Below are positions 17,378 to 42,381 of a DNA stretch of 51,574 nucleotides, one piece after another. The notes under the pieces are model-generated. The model saw only the letters and a list, made by a program, of their open reading frames with translations. It was not told the origin of the DNA and did not search any database. The stretch covers positions 1 to 51,574 of the forward strand of contig DATMAT010000022.1 of the NCBI GenBank assembly GCA_035559815.1, in the 5' to 3' direction. Position 1 is the stretch's first letter; each line of letters begins with the position of its first letter. Both the position numbers and the translations under genes were made by a program. Source of the stretch: Thermodesulfobacteriota bacterium (GTDB lineage: Bacteria > Desulfobacterota_D > UBA1144 > Nemesobacterales > CSP1-2).

Positions 17378-17484
17378 GGCTAATCGCCTCTCTCCGGTTT
17401 TTCGCCTTCAGTACGGATACATTTTACTTTGACAACATTGTAAAAGTATCTGAGTAGCCTTGTCAATAACTTAAAATTATCTGT

Positions 17485-17521
17485 AAACCCGTTAACCCGT
17501 AAACCCGCCAACCCGTGAAGC
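17485..17521. repeat. Octamer-repeat arm (AACCCGNN), copy 1
   Basis: Four successive degenerate octamers of the form AACCCGNN. The complementary form (NNCGTGTT) lies at 17014-17045 and 17571-17612, so opposite arms enclose the four-helix-bundle sequences. Directly followed by CTTTTAACAGACCAC (17521-17535) and a solitary CRISPR-repeat relic. Confidence 0.7.
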
Positions 17522-17535
17522 TTTTAACAGACCAC

Positions 17536-17560
17536 ATTTCAATTCCTCATAGGTAGGCGG
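17536..17560. repeat. Solitary CRISPR-repeat relic 1
   Basis: Begins ATTTCAATTCCTCATAGGTA, matching the first dozen bases of the array repeat (GTTTCAATCCCT) but continuing CATAGGTAGGCGG instead of TTCAGGGAG. The second half resembles the 30-bp repeat class with a TCATAGGTA or TTATAGGTA core found with type I-B/III arrays. It is preceded by the same CTTTTAACAGACCAC tract as the first true repeat of the array. Confidence 0.6.
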
Positions 17561-17569
17561 TTGCACCCG

Positions 17570-17965
17570 TTAGCGTGTTGTCGTGTTCACTTGTTTAAGT
17601 GTTGAATGTGCTAAGTACGAGATAAGTTTACCTATCTTAGCGGAGAGGAGATTGGTTTTGATAACTAACTCATTAAAATCTTGATAGGATAAGTACTCAA
17701 GGTCTCTGGCGATATGTAATTGTGTTCTTACTTCTCCGGTCGAACCTTTTGCATAGTGCAGAAATTTAATGAAATCTTTTCTCGTCTTTCTCTCAAATCC
17801 CTCCGCTATATTTGAAGCTATTGATACTGCAGCTCTTTCGATCTGATCTTTAAGTCCAAAGTCTTTAACAAATTTCTCTTTGTTTGTGGCACGATAGATG
17901 TTAACAGCAAGGGCTCTAGCCTCTTGCCAAATTTCTAGGTCCTCGAACCTCTTTACAGTTTTCAT
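17570..17965 (-). CDS. Four-helix-bundle protein (S23/IVS-encoded family), copy 2
   Basis: 131 residues of the TIGR02436-type family first seen in intervening sequences of 23S rRNA genes: RFEDLEIWQEARALAVNIY, then IERAAVSIASNIAEGFERKT and FIKFLHYAKGSTGEVRTQL. These are the diagnostic helices. The fold is a pentameric four-helix bundle; no enzyme activity is known. The last residues (about STLKQVNTTTR and the stop) are encoded by the octamer repeat itself. An octamer arm of opposite sense lies 5' of the gene (18052-18071). No reverse transcriptase is near, so it is not a DGR accessory. Confidence 0.85.
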   Translation of the reverse strand: MKTVKRFEDLEIWQEARALAVNIYRATNKEKFVKDFGLKDQIERAAVSIASNIAEGFERKTRKDFIKFLHYAKGSTGEVRTQLHIARDLEYLSYQDFNELVIKTNLLSAKIGKLISYLAHSTLKQVNTTTR

Positions 17966-18068
17966 ATCCGTTTATTTTTTGTATGTTAACTTGATTGGAG
18001 TCATATATTTATATCAATGATCGAAAGTGTATTGCTGTATGTATATCTTTTCAACCCGCGAACTCGTG

Positions 18069-18169
18069 AACCTTGAATCTGCAGAGTCCATTTATTCCTG
18101 GAGGTCAGTATTTCTAACCCGCAAACCCGCCAACCCGTGAACCTTTTAACAGACCTCGTTTCAATCCCT
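18069..18169. repeat. 101-bp duplication ending in a CRISPR-repeat fragment, left copy
   Basis: Nearly identical (two differences by eye) to 18294-18394, 225 bp away. It contains CCTTGAATCTGCAGAGTCC, an octamer arm at 18116-18143, CTTTTAACAGACC, and the first 12 bases of the array repeat. The left copy continues as a relic (18158-18180); the right copy continues as repeat 1 of the array. Confidence 0.85.
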
Positions 18170-18180
18170 CATAGGTAATG
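18158..18180. repeat. Solitary CRISPR-repeat relic 2
   Basis: GTTTCAATCCCT is identical to the array repeat start, followed by CATAGGTAATG as in relic 1. It has no second repeat and no spacer of array length next to it. Confidence 0.65.
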
Positions 18181-18187
18181 AAATGAA

Positions 18188-18293
18188 TTGTTAGCGTGTT
18201 GTCGTGTTCGCTTGTTTACGTGCTAGATAAAACAACTAAGAAGTGAATTTACCGATCTCGCTGGGGAGAAAATGAGTTTGAGAGAGGTTGTAG
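18188..18293 (-). pseudogene. Decayed 3' end of a four-helix-bundle gene (copy 3)
   Basis: Begins with the octamer arm GTTAGCGTGTTGTCGTGTTC, the same arm that encodes the end of the intact gene. The minus-strand reading LIFSPARSVNSLLS aligns with NLLSAKIGKLISYL of the intact protein. Only about 70 bp of gene remains before the 101-bp duplication. Confidence 0.5.
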
Positions 18294-18394
18294 AACCTTG
18301 AATCTGCAGAGTCCATTTATTCCCGGAGGTCAGTATTTCTAACCCGCAAACCCGCCAACCCGTGAACCTTTTAACAGACCACGTTTCAATCCCT
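18294..18394. repeat. 101-bp duplication, right copy (abuts the array)
   Basis: Right copy of the sequence at 18069-18169. Differences are T to C near position 30 and T to A just before the repeat. It runs into array repeat 1 (18383-18419) and so marks the left boundary of the CRISPR array. Confidence 0.85.
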
Positions 18395-25454: not shown

Positions 25455-25612
25455 CTCCCGTCATTAGCTATTAGTCTTTAGTCCTTCGACTGTTTTTGTC
25501 CAAGGACGAACGACAAACGTCCAACGACTCTTCTATAATCCCGTCATTAGCTATTAGTCTTTAGTCCTTCGACTGTCTTTGTCCAAGGACCAAGGACTAA
25601 CGACTAACGACT
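25455..25612. repeat. Heptamer-hairpin block A (cas1-cas2 junction)
   Basis: Two tandem units of about 80 bp. Each has heptamers of the form GTCNTTR, the centre GACTGTTTTTGTCC (GACTGTCTTTGTCC in the second unit), then the complementary YAANGAC series. The units can fold into long imperfect hairpins. The repeat begins right after the cas1 stop codon (AAATAAAGTCGTTAG on the minus strand). Confidence 0.9.
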
Positions 25613-26653
25613 TTATTTAATCAGAAACGGTATATACTCCTCTATCTCACCGGAGATAAACTTGCCCAAAAGCCTAGCCTGAAGCTCAAAGCTCTTGAAG
25701 TACGTTGCTTTGTAATCAAACAGAGGATGCTTTATCTCGGCTCGCTTTTTCTCCTCGTAATGCTGTAGGAATTTTTTGAATGCGCTGTCTTTAAGCTTGT
25801 AAACCTTTCCTAGTTCTAAATCGAAATCATCAATCTGTATAACCTTTTTGTTTATCAAAGAAAGCACCAGGGAGTCGACAATCACCGGTCTAAACTCTTC
25901 TACCAAGTCCAACGCCAGGGATGGCTTTCCGTATTTGTCCGAATGGAGAAACCCGATGTAGGGGTCGAATCCAACAATATTGCACACGGTGTGCACGTCG
26001 TTTGTAAGAAGAACATAGCCCAATGAGAGAAGAGCGTTTACGGGGTCGGTAGGCGGTCTTCTCTCTCTTCCATCAAAACTAAAGCCGTCCGCTTTTATGA
26101 GTTCTCCAAAAACACCGAAATAAGCGGCGGTTCCGGCTCCCTCATGTCCTCGTATTTCATCCACGGATGTAGCGTCTTTAAGTTTTCTAATCGTAACCTT
26201 TATTCTTTCTATGGCCTCTTCGATTCTATTTCCTGAGATATTGGAGCTTACCTCATCAACCTTATCTTCGGGACTTTGCGCACGCCCTGCCCTGAGCAGA
26301 ATTGTACGTATATTTGCAAGTTTGCCGTAAACCAGGGCTTTACTGATAGCTTCTGTCTTACCCTTGTCGTCGGATGCTTTATACTGAGCCTTTCTCAGAA
26401 TAGAGTTCTTTGAAAACTCCGGCTGTAACCGCCCTATGTATTTTCCAAAGGTAGTTAGATAAACAATCTCTATTCCGTGTTCTAGCAGGGACCTGACGGT
26501 TAAAGGTGTAACTGTCACCCTTCCCCAGACCACAACATGGTCTACTTTTATCAGGGGAACGTCGATTATTGTTTCTTTCTCGATCGTGACTTTGAGACGC
26601 TCGTCAACCTTTCTAAGCACCGAACCGTCACGGGTTATGTGCAACGTACTCAT
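25613..26653 (-). CDS. cas1: CRISPR-associated integrase Cas1
   Basis: 346 residues. An N-terminal beta domain (1-75: MSTLHITRDGSVLRK, HVVVWGRVTVTPLTVRSLLE) precedes the helical catalytic domain. Metal ligands: E171 in EIRGHEGAGTAAYFG, H237 in GFLHSDKYGKPSLALDL, and D249/E252 in DLVEEFRP. This is the nuclease-integrase that catalyses spacer insertion with Cas2. It is of the kind found with type I-A to I-D systems. Heptamer repeats bracket it on both sides. Confidence 0.96.
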   Translation of the reverse strand: MSTLHITRDGSVLRKVDERLKVTIEKETIIDVPLIKVDHVVVWGRVTVTPLTVRSLLEHGIEIVYLTTFGKYIGRLQPEFSKNSILRKAQYKASDDKGKTEAISKALVYGKLANIRTILLRAGRAQSPEDKVDEVSSNISGNRIEEAIERIKVTIRKLKDATSVDEIRGHEGAGTAAYFGVFGELIKADGFSFDGRERRPPTDPVNALLSLGYVLLTNDVHTVCNIVGFDPYIGFLHSDKYGKPSLALDLVEEFRPVIVDSLVLSLINKKVIQIDDFDLELGKVYKLKDSAFKKFLQHYEEKKRAEIKHPLFDYKATYFKSFELQARLLGKFISGEIEEYIPFLIK

Positions 26654-26664
26654 CCTACCTCCTC

Positions 26665-26915
26665 ATCCCCGTCGTTAGCTTTTAGTCTTTAGTCATTAGA
26701 TTTAGTCTAACGACAAACGGCCAACTCCTTCCCACATCCCCGTCTTTAGCTATTAGTCCTTGGTCTTTAGACTGTTTTTATCCAACGACTAACAGCCAAC
26801 GACTAACGACTCTTCTGTAATCCCGTCATTAGCTATTAGTCTTTAGTCCTTCGACTGTTTTTATCGAATGACCAAAGACCAAGGACCAACGACATTTCTT
26901 CCAACGGCTAACGAC
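26665..26915. repeat. Heptamer-hairpin block B
   Basis: About three units of the same GTCNTTR / YAANGAC hairpin repeat, joined by CTCCTTCCCACATCCCCG or CTCTTCTGTAATCCCG linkers. The right end overlaps the stop codon of the four-helix-bundle gene: AGAAAAAGTCGTTAG encodes its last residues R-K-S-R and the TAG. Confidence 0.9.
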
Positions 26916-27282
26916 TTTTTCTTAAAGAGTTTACTAAGCCATTAATTAGCGTACCGACTTTATCACATCTGGTTATAGTTTGAATTACCTCCTCTTCATT
27001 TACATAGCCAAGTCTTTCTGCAATCTTGACTGCAGTAACAACCTCGTAAAGAGACCTCCTTGCAATAGTTAGAAACTGAATAAATTCCTTATCAGTATTA
27101 CAACCGCTTCCTTCGGCTATATTCAGGGGCACTGATGACACTGCTCTCCTTAACTGATCCACTAATACGAAGGATTCGTTTTTGGGGAAACTAGTCGTAA
27201 GCTTATAAATCTCTTCTACCAGATTCATCCCTTCTTGCCAGGCTTTTAGCCTTTCAAATCTATACATCCTTGCCTCCCGCAC
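26908..27282 (-). CDS. Four-helix-bundle protein (S23/IVS family) between cas4 and cas1
   Basis: 124 residues, same family as the gene at 17570 but clearly diverged: RFERLKAWQEGMNLVEEIY, then VDQLRRAVSSVPLNIAEGSG and FIQFLTIARRSLYEVVTAV. It interrupts the usual cas4-cas1 adjacency and has heptamer arrays on both sides. Its last codons (RKSR and stop) come from the repeat, exactly as in cas6. The start may be the inner ATG at 27267 (MYRFERLK). No enzymatic role is known for the family; a mobile intervening-sequence-like element is the simplest reading. Confidence 0.85.
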   Translation of the reverse strand: MREARMYRFERLKAWQEGMNLVEEIYKLTTSFPKNESFVLVDQLRRAVSSVPLNIAEGSGCNTDKEFIQFLTIARRSLYEVVTAVKIAERLGYVNEEEVIQTITRCDKVGTLINGLVNSLRKSR

Positions 27283-27289
27283 ATCCGTC

Positions 27290-27535
27290 GTTGGTTATTA
27301 GCCATTAGTCTTTAGACTGTCCTTATCCAACGACCAAGGACAAACGACTAACGACCAACTCCTTCCCACATCCCCGTCTTTGGCTATCAGTCTTTAGTCC
27401 TTCGATTGTTTTTGTCCAAGGACGAACGACTAACGACCAACTCCTTCCCACACTCCTGTCTTTGGCTATTAGTCCCTGGTCCTTTGATTCTTTGTCTAAC
27501 GACAAACGACTAATGACTAAAGTCCAAAGTCCAGT
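27290..27535. repeat. Heptamer-hairpin block C
   Basis: About three hairpin units between the four-helix-bundle gene and the cas4 stop. The repeat runs into cas4: the minus-strand heptamers GGACTTT-GGACTTT-AGTCATT encode the last residues of Cas4 and its TAG stop. Confidence 0.9.
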
Positions 27536-28254
27536 TTTACTCTTCTTGCCTTTTCCTCCTCTTTCGGCAGGCATACAGGGTAAAGACTGCAACCGGCGCA
27601 TTTACCCTTGTAGAACGCAGGAGGCTTAACCCCGCTTCTCATAAGCTCCCGGACCTTCTCTATCATCTCAACCGTGTATTTCCTGAGTTCCTCATCGAGA
27701 ATCACTTCAACCCTTCTCCCAGACGAAGCATAATAAATGAATCCCTTCGGGATTCTCGTCGTTAGTCCTCGGTCTTTGGTCCTTGGAGTTTTCTCGTCTA
27801 AAGACGAATGACCAACGACCAACGACTCTTCGTCGAAGGGCGAACGACTAACGACTAAAGACGGCTCGCCGGTAGACGGGCTAAGCATTTCCTCGATGCA
27901 TAGTGCCTGGGCGCAGAGCTGGAGCTTGTCGTTTTTCCAATCCCCGCGCCTTCCCCTCTTGTATTCCACCGGATAGATTTCTCCTGCCTTTTCCTCTATT
28001 AAATCTGCAAATCCTATAAGACCGTATTTCTTTGAATATACGTGCACTCTTCTGAGTTGCACCAGGTCTCCCCGGGTAGTTTTCATGGTTTTGTGCACGT
28101 TCTCGTGGATGATATCGCCTTCCACCGTGTATTCGTTATCCTTGAACTCGCCGGCCACATAAATCCAGTAGCACCGGGTGGGACAGTACTCATAGTGGTT
28201 AAGCGCTGAGATAAATATATAGTCGTTAATCTCTTGTCTTTGGTCTTTAGACAT
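27517..28254 (-). CDS. cas4: Cas4 nuclease with an in-frame repeat insertion
   Basis: 245 residues. RecB-type nuclease that trims pre-spacers and helps fix their PAM orientation. Fe-S cysteines C24 (EYCPTRC) and C219, C222, C228 (KCAGCSLYPVC). Active-site residues H50 (GDIIHENVH), D84 (GFADLIEE), E97 and K99 (PVEYKRG), Q112 (LQLCAQAL). Between the Q motif and the strand GFIYYASSGRRVEV lies about 36 extra residues (about 132-167) encoded by a complete heptamer hairpin (block D); no stop or frameshift results. The first codons (SKDQRQEIND) and the last (LDFGL) also read through heptamer sequence. It is full length otherwise and probably active if the insert forms a surface loop. Confidence 0.92.
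   Translation of the reverse strand: MSKDQRQEINDYIFISALNHYEYCPTRCYWIYVAGEFKDNEYTVEGDIIHENVHKTMKTTRGDLVQLRRVHVYSKKYGLIGFADLIEEKAGEIYPVEYKRGRRGDWKNDKLQLCAQALCIEEMLSPSTGEPSLVVSRSPFDEESLVVGHSSLDEKTPRTKDRGLTTRIPKGFIYYASSGRRVEVILDEELRKYTVEMIEKVRELMRSGVKPPAFYKGKCAGCSLYPVCLPKEEEKARRVKLDFGL
27757..27863. repeat. Heptamer-hairpin block D, inside cas4
   Basis: Four GTCNTTR-type heptamers, the turn GAGTTTTCTC, and several YAANGAC heptamers, then a second partial set. About 107 bp lie within the cas4 reading frame and it stays open. The same sequence class is otherwise only between genes in this window. Confidence 0.92.
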
Positions 28255-28323
28255 GACTGAGTACCTGCTAATTTCATCTACATTGGTATCTCCAGAAATC
28301 GTATACCTGAACGTTCTTCCCGC

Positions 28324-28448
28324 ACCCTCGTCTTTAGCTGTTTGTCTTTAGTCTTTCGACTGTTTTTGTCTAACGACTAATGACGAAGGACCAAAGACTT
28401 TTTATCTAACGACTAACGACTAACGACTAACGACAAAAGACCAATAGC
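28324..28448. repeat. Heptamer-hairpin block E
   Basis: One full hairpin unit followed by a run of four nearly perfect ACTAACG heptamers, between the AbiEii-like toxin stop and the cas4 start. The interval 28255-28452 otherwise has no gene. Confidence 0.9.
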
Positions 28449-28452
28449 TATC

Positions 28453-29124
28453 TTAAACATCAATCCACTCTTTGCTCATCTCTTCTACTTCATAAGAGAA
28501 AAATTCTTTTACCTCTGTCCACTGCAATTTTTGAATCATCCTGGGCATCTTTTCTCTTTCGGCATCTTCAAAATATACAAGGGCTCTCAAGGCCTGCATC
28601 GGGAAGTCTCTTACTCTGGGGAATTTTTTACTGCTCAGCCTCAAAAGGCTTTTAAGAGATGTATGAAAGTTAGCGATAAAATATAGGTCTATAAAATCTT
28701 TTTTGCTGCCCCGCCCGACAATGGCAGCGATTTTCATTAATCCGATATCTGAGAAAGAGGCTATCCGTAGATTTCCAAAATCAATCAGAGGAGACACTAG
28801 GGGATATTCGTAGTGAAAAAAGCTCATACCTACACGGCCTAGGTAAATTCTTAAGGTTCCCTGCTCTTCTAGTTCAACCTCTACCTTTCCTGCCTTGGAT
28901 AAACAGCGGATGATTTTTTCTCTTGAATTTCTTTTAAGTTCTTCTCTATTTGAGAAAAAATCAAAATCTTGGGAGACACGGTGCCCGATTTGAAGGGCAA
29001 GTCCTGTTCCACCAGCTAGATAGAAGTCTTTGAGAAAGGATTGCTCATGCAGGATTTTGTAAACGGATCTTGCCCCTTTTGTCAGAGCTTCGGTATGAAG
29101 GTTCTCTTTCATCAGTATCTCCAT
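28453..29124 (-). CDS. AbiEii/AbiGii-type nucleotidyltransferase toxin
   Basis: 223 residues of the DUF1814 family. The nucleotidyltransferase core FYLAGGTGLALQIGHR (about 34-49) is followed by the acidic pair in SQDFDFFS, then RIYLGRVGMSFFHYEYPLV, and the family's KIAAIVGRGSKKDFIDLYF segment. Such toxins transfer nucleotides to cellular targets and act in abortive phage infection. It overlaps the upstream antitoxin gene by 13 nt. The pair sits between cas6 and cas4, with heptamer arrays on both sides. Confidence 0.85.
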   Translation of the reverse strand: MEILMKENLHTEALTKGARSVYKILHEQSFLKDFYLAGGTGLALQIGHRVSQDFDFFSNREELKRNSREKIIRCLSKAGKVEVELEEQGTLRIYLGRVGMSFFHYEYPLVSPLIDFGNLRIASFSDIGLMKIAAIVGRGSKKDFIDLYFIANFHTSLKSLLRLSSKKFPRVRDFPMQALRALVYFEDAEREKMPRMIQKLQWTEVKEFFSYEVEEMSKEWIDV

Positions 29125-29426
29125 AAAGGGTATTTATCGGTCAGCCAATCAGGCTTTTTGTATCGTCTTATCTTGAGCACGATCCGCCAGTAATTAAACC
29201 CGCGTTTGGAAAGAACCCTGTACCCTCGTGCTCTCACAAACTCCTTGATTCTTTGAGCACCGTATGTTTTAAAGAGCCATTTAAGCTCTTCTCTTGTACC
29301 GAACTCGAGCGTTCTTCCGATTATAAGCTCCACATCTTTTTCTGTATCCAGAGATGAAAAATCGTATTCTTGAAAATAAGGTGCAATGGTTTTTATTATC
29401 TTGGTTTTCATTTTCTTCCTATACAT
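29112..29426 (-). CDS. DUF6922-like antitoxin partner
   Basis: 104 residues, predicted helical and basic (EKDVELIIGRTLEFGTREEL, then LFKTYGAQRIKEFVRARGYR and the C-terminal KIRRYKKPDWLTDKYPLWRY). Small proteins with this pattern are commonly encoded directly before AbiEii-type toxins and are their antitoxins. Overlap with the toxin indicates coupled translation. An alternative start is the inner Met at 29411. Confidence 0.7.
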   Translation of the reverse strand: MYRKKMKTKIIKTIAPYFQEYDFSSLDTEKDVELIIGRTLEFGTREELKWLFKTYGAQRIKEFVRARGYRVLSKRGFNYWRIVLKIRRYKKPDWLTDKYPLWRY

Positions 29427-29429
29427 TTT

Positions 29430-29712
29430 TATCTAAAGACTAACGTTCTTCCAGCACTCCCGTCTTTAGCTATTTATCTTTAGTCCTTAGACTGTTTTAT
29501 TGTCCAAGGACAAACGACTAACGTCCAACGACTCTTCTATAATCTCGTCTTTAGCTATTAGTCTTTCGATTCTTTGTCTAACGACCAAAGACCAACGACC
29601 AACTCCTTCCCACATTCCCGCCTTTGGCTATTAGTCCTTCGTCCTTCGACTGTTTTTGTCCAAGGACCAAGGACTAACGACTAACGACTAACGACTTTTT
29701 CTACTAACGACT
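29430..29712. repeat. Heptamer-hairpin block F
   Basis: About three to four hairpin units between cas6 and the toxin-antitoxin pair. The right end encodes the last residues of Cas6: minus-strand AGAAAAAGTCGTTAG gives R-K-S-R and the stop, the same sequence that ends the four-helix-bundle gene at 26908. Confidence 0.9.
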
Positions 29713-42330: not shown

Positions 42331-42367
42331 TAGCGTGTTTGCGTGTTAACTCGTCAACTCGTGAACA
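42331..42367. repeat. Octamer inverted repeat without loop
   Basis: AGCGTGTTTGCGTGTT is followed directly by AACTCGTCAACTCGTGAAC: NNCGTGTT octamers on the left and AACTCGNN octamers on the right, forming an imperfect hairpin. It lies between the convergent rlmB and ligA stops and may act as a terminator. Same family as the arms at 17-18.4 and 38.4 kb. Confidence 0.6.
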
Positions 42368-42381
42368 CTTAAACATTTGCA

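Follow-up and report, generated by a model that had tools for sequence, protein, structure and literature searches.

The six blocks of degenerate GTCNTTR heptamers that punctuate a cas operon of Thermodesulfobacteriota bacterium (GenBank assembly GCA_035559815.1) are best read as local hairpin-form copies of a small mobile element family centred on a gene of the 23S_rRNA_IVP (S23) family, PF05635, a reading to which we assign a probability of roughly 0.7. The blocks lie within contig DATMAT010000022.1, whose 51,574 nucleotides constitute the window analysed here, and a small four-helix gene between cas4 and cas1 is the PF05635 (IVP) gene in question. In this proposal, the full, autonomous form of the element would be a cassette of ~0.45-0.6 kb consisting of a degenerate heptamer array, a PF05635 gene and an inverted array, and the hairpins would be its non-autonomous form, lacking the open reading frame (ORF) in the manner of miniature inverted-repeat transposable elements. 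The window would thus represent the home locus of the GTCNTTR family, with one IVP gene and ~14 hairpins distributed over the cas operon around it.

The GTCNTTR heptamer is strongly concentrated in this part of the window. Counting both strands, the window contains 124 matches compared to 47.8 expected from first-order Markov shuffles, of which 79 (expected, ~4) fall in the 4.3 kb of 25455-29712, while the other 47 kb is at background with 45 (expected, ~44). In the direction of transcription, the minus-strand gene order is cas6, a DUF6922 gene, an AbiEii-type gene, cas4, the four-helix gene, cas1 and cas2, and the blocks occupy cas6/DUF6922 gene, AbiEii gene/cas4, the inside of cas4, cas4/IVP, IVP/cas1 and cas1/cas2. 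A preliminary description of this DNA had named the same six sites, and all are present in the order it gave. Its estimate of 12-15 units agrees with the ~14 that we counted, and its picture of ~80-bp hairpins with common linkers is borne out by a repeat finder, which spaces the units 71-89 bp apart within blocks with linkers such as CTCCTTCCCACATCCC in common, and by the folding of 12 units singly as single strands or RNA, which gave z-scores of -2.4 to -8.3. Each heptamer array does have an inverted partner, as had been proposed, but alignment of the units shows that the two arms are not equivalent, one being fairly conserved (GTCNTTaGCTATTAGTCTTTAGTCCTTCGACTGTTTTTGTC) and the other a degenerate (YAANGAC)n array. 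The statement that such blocks occur nowhere else in the window holds for GTCNTTR and fails for arrays in general, as the window contains a second family built from AACCCGYN and GTTNNCGT octamers. The suggested search beyond the window located GTCNTTR arrays on five further contigs (C23, C28, C36, C38 and C68) of the same genome (3.97 Mb, 79 contigs).

The four-helix gene matches PF05635 over the entire model (positions 1-106 of 106; E 5.4e-37; 126.7 bits against a cut-off of 33.8), its product matches the solved structure 2GSC (XCC0516; E 9.8e-25), and the only other profile match is a weak one to bAvd. The genome holds eight PF05635 genes, all surrounded by private 7- or 8-mer arrays that have inverted partners and a motif that differs from locus to locus: GTCNTTR, GAATTNG, AACCCGYN, AAACACY, TCCCTAR, an octamer around CCAAGYNA, TAGCTCN and AATTAAG. 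A blind lag detector, applied in a census spanning 0.83 of the 3.97 Mb, returned 61 period-7 and 27 period-8 arrays compared to 3-25 for other periods, and recovered arrays at all eight IVP loci with local clusters around three of them. The same census recorded dispersed families of a CATCNTG heptamer and a CACGAAGR octamer (C23, C44, C20 and C1) with no PF05635 gene adjacent in the sampled 0.83 Mb.

To our knowledge, bacterial heptamer arrays have been noticed for decades without a known agent, and four-helix proteins of the S23/IVP type are common and have no known function. In a diverse set of PF05635-relative loci from 80 named genomes (Bacteroidota, Chloroflexota, Acidobacteriota, Rhizobiales, Planctomycetota, candidate phyla and one Methanophagales archaeon), arrays flank IVP genes family-wide. 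The genome scan for this set used five closer IVP sequences; seven IVPs of the window's own genome gave no conserved stretch. Across the 80 loci, period-7 density reached 25.7 and 16.8 per kb in the two 250-bp stretches next to the gene, compared to ~1.0-1.6 per kb at distances above 2 kb, and the only enriched periods were 7 and, as a smaller peak, 8, with almost nothing at 5, 6 or 9-12. Of the IVP-adjacent gaps, 67% held an array, compared to 17% of the 476 intergenic gaps elsewhere (p = 4e-29). Where the strict detector found nothing, most loci have degenerate arrays by eye, and a lax search assigned a best 7- or 8-mer motif to 104 of 109 loci, the weakest of which are indistinguishable from chance. 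An independent proteobacterial set of 30 loci, picked by protein similarity only, behaved in the same way, with arrays in 77% of flank windows compared to 3.8% of distant windows and on at least one side in 27 loci. Because such arrays usually flank members of this gene family in every sample examined, the four-helix gene is better regarded as part of the element than as cargo brought in by recombination at the hairpins, as the preliminary description had suggested.

Arrays of this kind also accompany IVP genes outside chromosomes and in previously described repeat families. Nine plasmid-borne IVP loci (eight cyanobacterial, one from Riemerella) have arrays by eye, several of them resembling cyanobacterial short tandem heptamer repeats (STRRs; CCCTGTT, GGGAGTA), and the cyanobacterial plasmid genes have STRR-like arrays on both flanks, which substantiates the likeness to STRRs first noted for the blocks in the window. 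GGGATTC and GGGAATC units accompany the closest relatives of XCC0516 among the sequences compared (64% identity, and 60% over 70 residues), both of which lie between genes reading like accB and accC; the GGGAATC units begin locus L369, whose IVP is of the XCC0516 type. PF05635 cassettes with differing array motifs in two unrelated genomes (L093 and L105) apparently lie inside a gene reading like an N-6 DNA methylase.

The two flanks of an IVP gene are mutually inverted. The inverse-complement score of upstream against downstream flank averaged 21.4 within the same locus, compared to 11.2 for mismatched loci and 11.6 for pairs of control windows, and half of the loci exceeded the 99th percentile of controls. 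Motif and gene also often go together, as mean motif similarity was 0.60 for IVP pairs at 60-70% identity compared to 0.46 below. Among pairs of at least 60% identity without common neighbour genes, a small sample, 4 of 11 exceeded the null 95th percentile; one of these four joins a cyanobacterial plasmid gene with a gene from the family of the window's genome (L148/L040). These sequence comparisons suggest that the IVP recognises its cognate motif. In addition, cassettes follow the transcription direction of their surroundings, being co-directional with both neighbours in 63 of 75 cases compared to a 45% background and on the same strand as the upstream neighbour in 72 of 75, as expected for an element without its own promoter.

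Presence and absence of whole cassettes could be compared directly among 41 related genomes of the Mesorhizobium group. At the nuoC/nuoD site, an array-IVP-array cassette of 461-486 bp is found in a minority, compared to 7-20 bp in the others. A second operon site is occupied in 14 loci (344-598 bp) and empty in 16 (51-112 bp). The empty alleles at both sites carry no arrays, indicating that the arrays arrive with the IVP gene. Dispersed GTGAATR hairpins are most numerous where the GTGAATR cassette is present: the six genomes that have it contain 16-83 GTGAATR triplets each, compared to a median of 0 in the other 35 (p = 4e-5, without phylogenetic correction of the counts), and the reversed pattern, used as a control, is found zero times in all 41. 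The flank counts omit 15 of the 63 Mesorhizobium IVP loci, in which no core motif was found. We also considered whether the element takes its array motif from the target. A single GTGAATG unit is present in one empty nuo allele (L250) and the second site has no such match, and this idea was dropped. The nuoC/nuoD insertion site is shared by two PF05635 allele types, with GTGAATR and AGTAGTG-like arrays, which are found in different species (L234-L245).

For the GTCNTTR family itself, the corresponding evidence is an insert in Cas4, defined at the protein level. The block inside cas4 lengthens the protein by ~40 residues with the reading frame kept. Six Cas4-type homologues, one on contig C23 of the same genome and five in related genomes (G001, G005, G015, G018 and G030), do not have it, and because alignments to these distant proteins (31-42% identity) break near residues 125 and 167 and resume with little or nothing between, the block is an insert in the cas4 gene. 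Alignment of orthologous loci had been proposed as a check on block insertion, and this result, together with the dispersed solitary copies and the occupied and empty alleles of like cassettes at the two Mesorhizobium sites, supports the earlier suggestion of a mobile hairpin family. Such hairpins are a source of variation in cas operons, here one that extended Cas4. Elsewhere in the same genome (C23:248569-257242), a Cas4-type domain in a 539-aa open frame adjoins a dense AAACACY hairpin cluster with two PF05635 genes, and in a relative (G005, locus L052) hairpins and a similar IVP likewise lie close to the Cas4 homologue.

How such an element might spread is addressed by a model in which an IVP oligomer would recognise the register of its cognate heptamer in nucleic acid that is single-stranded or folded into a hairpin, and would promote, in trans, copying or insertion of array-bearing sequence. 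The copying itself would be done by host replication or repair enzymes, with single-stranded DNA at the fork or an RNA intermediate as candidate steps. Host enzymes are invoked because neither reverse transcriptase nor Y1 transposase was detected in some carriers. PF00078 reverse transcriptase was not detected in the window's genome (G000), G103, G070 or G071, PF01797 Y1 transposase was not detected in G074, G103, G105 or G107, and G103, which has a GTGAATR cassette and dispersed hairpins, lacks detectable members of both; these two families were the only ones searched for and some assemblies are incomplete. An IVP acting in trans on its own arrays, with copying by host enzymes, is the most economical model.

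Several observations weigh against a mobile, IVP-centred element. Transposition itself was not observed, and the IVP protein has no known catalytic motif. One genome with no PF05635 detected (G072) carries GTGAATR arrays and three more (G080, G099 and G108) carry CAGTAGG arrays. We read these as relics, for which the element model needs loss or transfer of the gene. Below 60% identity, motif and protein are uncorrelated (Mantel p = 0.11), so that specific recognition is suggested rather than proven, and two proteins that are 80% identical (L044/L045) have different motifs. Array length and unit number at a single site vary widely between species, indicating that slippage contributes, and the Mesorhizobium count comparison is uncorrected for the relatedness of its genomes.

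The same variation in unit number would fit an origin of the arrays in simple-sequence slippage alone, during replication of unconstrained intergenic DNA that lies by chance near tolerated ORFs. Slippage would not account for the restriction to periods 7 and 8, for the same motif appearing inverted on the two flanks, for the far poorer array content of other intergenic gaps, for empty alleles with no arrays or for the recurrence of one motif across a genome, and we consider it very improbable as a full explanation. A regulatory role deserves more weight while still being unlikely: the inverted arrays may be post-transcriptional signals, with an mRNA stem around the IVP ORF that is cut by RNase III or bound by the IVP to regulate expression, and with dispersed hairpins acting in trans. 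The strong RNA folds of the hairpins and the co-direction of cassettes with their neighbours are consistent with such signals, as is the excision of the Coxiella intervening sequence (IVS) stem by RNase III (PMC4990558). Left unexplained are the presence or absence of whole cassettes, the in-frame insert in Cas4, the ~14 local copies and the persistence of arrays in gene-less genomes. Transcript stabilisation or processing is possible as a side effect of the hairpins.

It is also improbable that another enzyme, such as a reverse transcriptase like that of diversity-generating retroelements (DGRs) or a REPIN-type Y1 transposase (RAYT), moves the elements with the IVP as an accessory. This idea draws on the four-helix family relationship of PF05635 with the DGR accessory protein Avd and with bAvd (PMC10053308), on the weak bAvd match of the home gene, and on the resemblance of a hairpin with dispersed copies to REPIN/RAYT systems. 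Movers of either type are disfavoured by the genomes in which PF00078, PF01797 or both went undetected, among them the window's own genome for the reverse transcriptase that would define a DGR. Finally, the four-helix gene could be a CRISPR accessory and the hairpins features of this particular cas operon. IVP genes near cas4 and cas6 in cas loci were listed in 2013, in a passage that does not mention repeats (PMC3936711). The window has two IVPs located within or next to CRISPR loci, and two more lie near the Cas4 homologue on C23. In a type III-B system on a Picosynechococcus sp. PCC 7003 plasmid (L147), a PF05635 cassette with octamer arrays separates cas10/cmr2 from a Cmr3-family gene. Most sampled IVP cassettes are located in unrelated operons (nuo, acc-like and others), which makes a CRISPR-specific role a slim prospect.

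The closest known parallel to the IVP-centred element is the 23S rRNA IVS of Coxiella and Leptospira, in which an ORF of the same protein family lies between terminal inverted repeats that form a stem. In Coxiella, the 428-nt IVS has variable-number tandem GACAGAT heptamers just upstream of the S23p ORF and inverted termini, treated as a local feature (PMC4990558). An IVP ORF between inverted repeats is likewise found at the present locus, in agreement with the family-wide comparison of flanks. Unlike the IVS, which interrupts a 23S rRNA helix, the present cassette lies between cas4 and cas1 and cassettes here are found in protein operons, with arrays on both flanks that are motif-specific per family and with dispersed ORF-less hairpin derivatives. 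We know of no described relative of the element family other than the rRNA IVS. The REPIN/RAYT system has a home-locus gene flanked by cognate palindromic repeats and many dispersed non-autonomous hairpins, and the present family may be analogous to it in its way of working. It differs in that the IVP matches the XCC0516 four-helix fold and no HUH/Y1 transposase, with no Y1 transposase at the home locus, and in that its repeats are tandem heptamer or octamer arrays. Degenerate or perfect 7-bp arrays that are intergenic, dispersed and several units long per site, as found here, are also characteristic of STRRs and other heptamer repeats, including those of Xanthomonas (GGGAATC; ~70 inverted pairs per genome) and Nostoc (GGGGAYT) (PMC4692102) and the TAACTGA repeats of Beggiatoaceae (PMC4679880). 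In the passages of these reports that describe them, the repeats are not linked to any protein, the Xanthomonas heptamers are generally found to have no association with mobile elements (PMC4692102), and no transmission mechanism is evident for the Beggiatoaceae repeats (PMC4679880).

A general link between IVP genes and heptamer arrays was not found in open-licence PubMed Central papers. The heptamers in the Coxiella rRNA IVS had been reported before. With a gene-repeat rule that extends across phyla, IVP proteins and heptamer arrays offer an explanation for each other and become testable together. With somewhat less than even odds, PF05635 genes and their private heptamer or octamer arrays may be widespread minimal mobile elements that spread without a recognisable transposase or reverse transcriptase, with cyanobacterial STRRs, the Xanthomonas and Beggiatoaceae heptamers and rRNA IVSs as members or relics. 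The gene-repeat rule would also account for much intergenic hairpin DNA, for some within-operon variability and for the IVP genes in cas loci. Features of the window are listed in the table.

Table. Positions of the GTCNTTR hairpins, the IVP gene and a second, similar element in the window
Feature	Coordinates	Strand	Evidence
Two heptamer hairpins, cas2-cas1 junction	25460..25616	none	Array scan; RNA fold z -4.6, -8.3
Three hairpins and partial array, cas1-IVP junction; array abuts 3' side of IVP ORF	26671..26922	none	z -5.4, -7.3 for two folded
Four-helix gene, PF05635 23S_rRNA_IVP (S23 protein), proposed element core	26908..27282	-	Pfam; PDB match 2GSC
Three hairpins, IVP-cas4 junction, first just 5' of IVP ORF; linker CTCCTTCCCACATCCC included	27287..27535	none	z -3.5 to -4.8
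In-frame hairpin block within cas4 (residues ~127-166)	27757..27876	none	Cas4 homologue alignments
Single GTCNTTR arm, cas4 5' end	28222..28252	none	Array scan; repeat finder
Hairpin with extended (YAACGAC)n array, cas4-AbiEii gene junction	28330..28448	none	z -3.1
Three hairpins and tail, DUF6922 gene-cas6 junction, overlapping cas6 3' end	29434..29712	none	z -5.1, -2.4, -6.7
Second similar element: AACCCGYN and GTTNNCGT octamer arrays around PF05635 gene 17570-17965 (-), next to CRISPR array	17477..18375	none for element	Profile match; array detector

Within the cas operon, the AbiEii-type nucleotidyltransferase gene overlaps the small DUF6922 gene (28453-29426), and the two probably form a toxin-antitoxin pair. 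Near-repeats of the stretch containing the second element recur beside the start of the CRISPR array, and an isolated degenerate octamer array of the GTTNNCGT type (TAGCGTGTTTGCGTGTTAACTCGTCAACTCGTGAAC) is found at 42331-42379.

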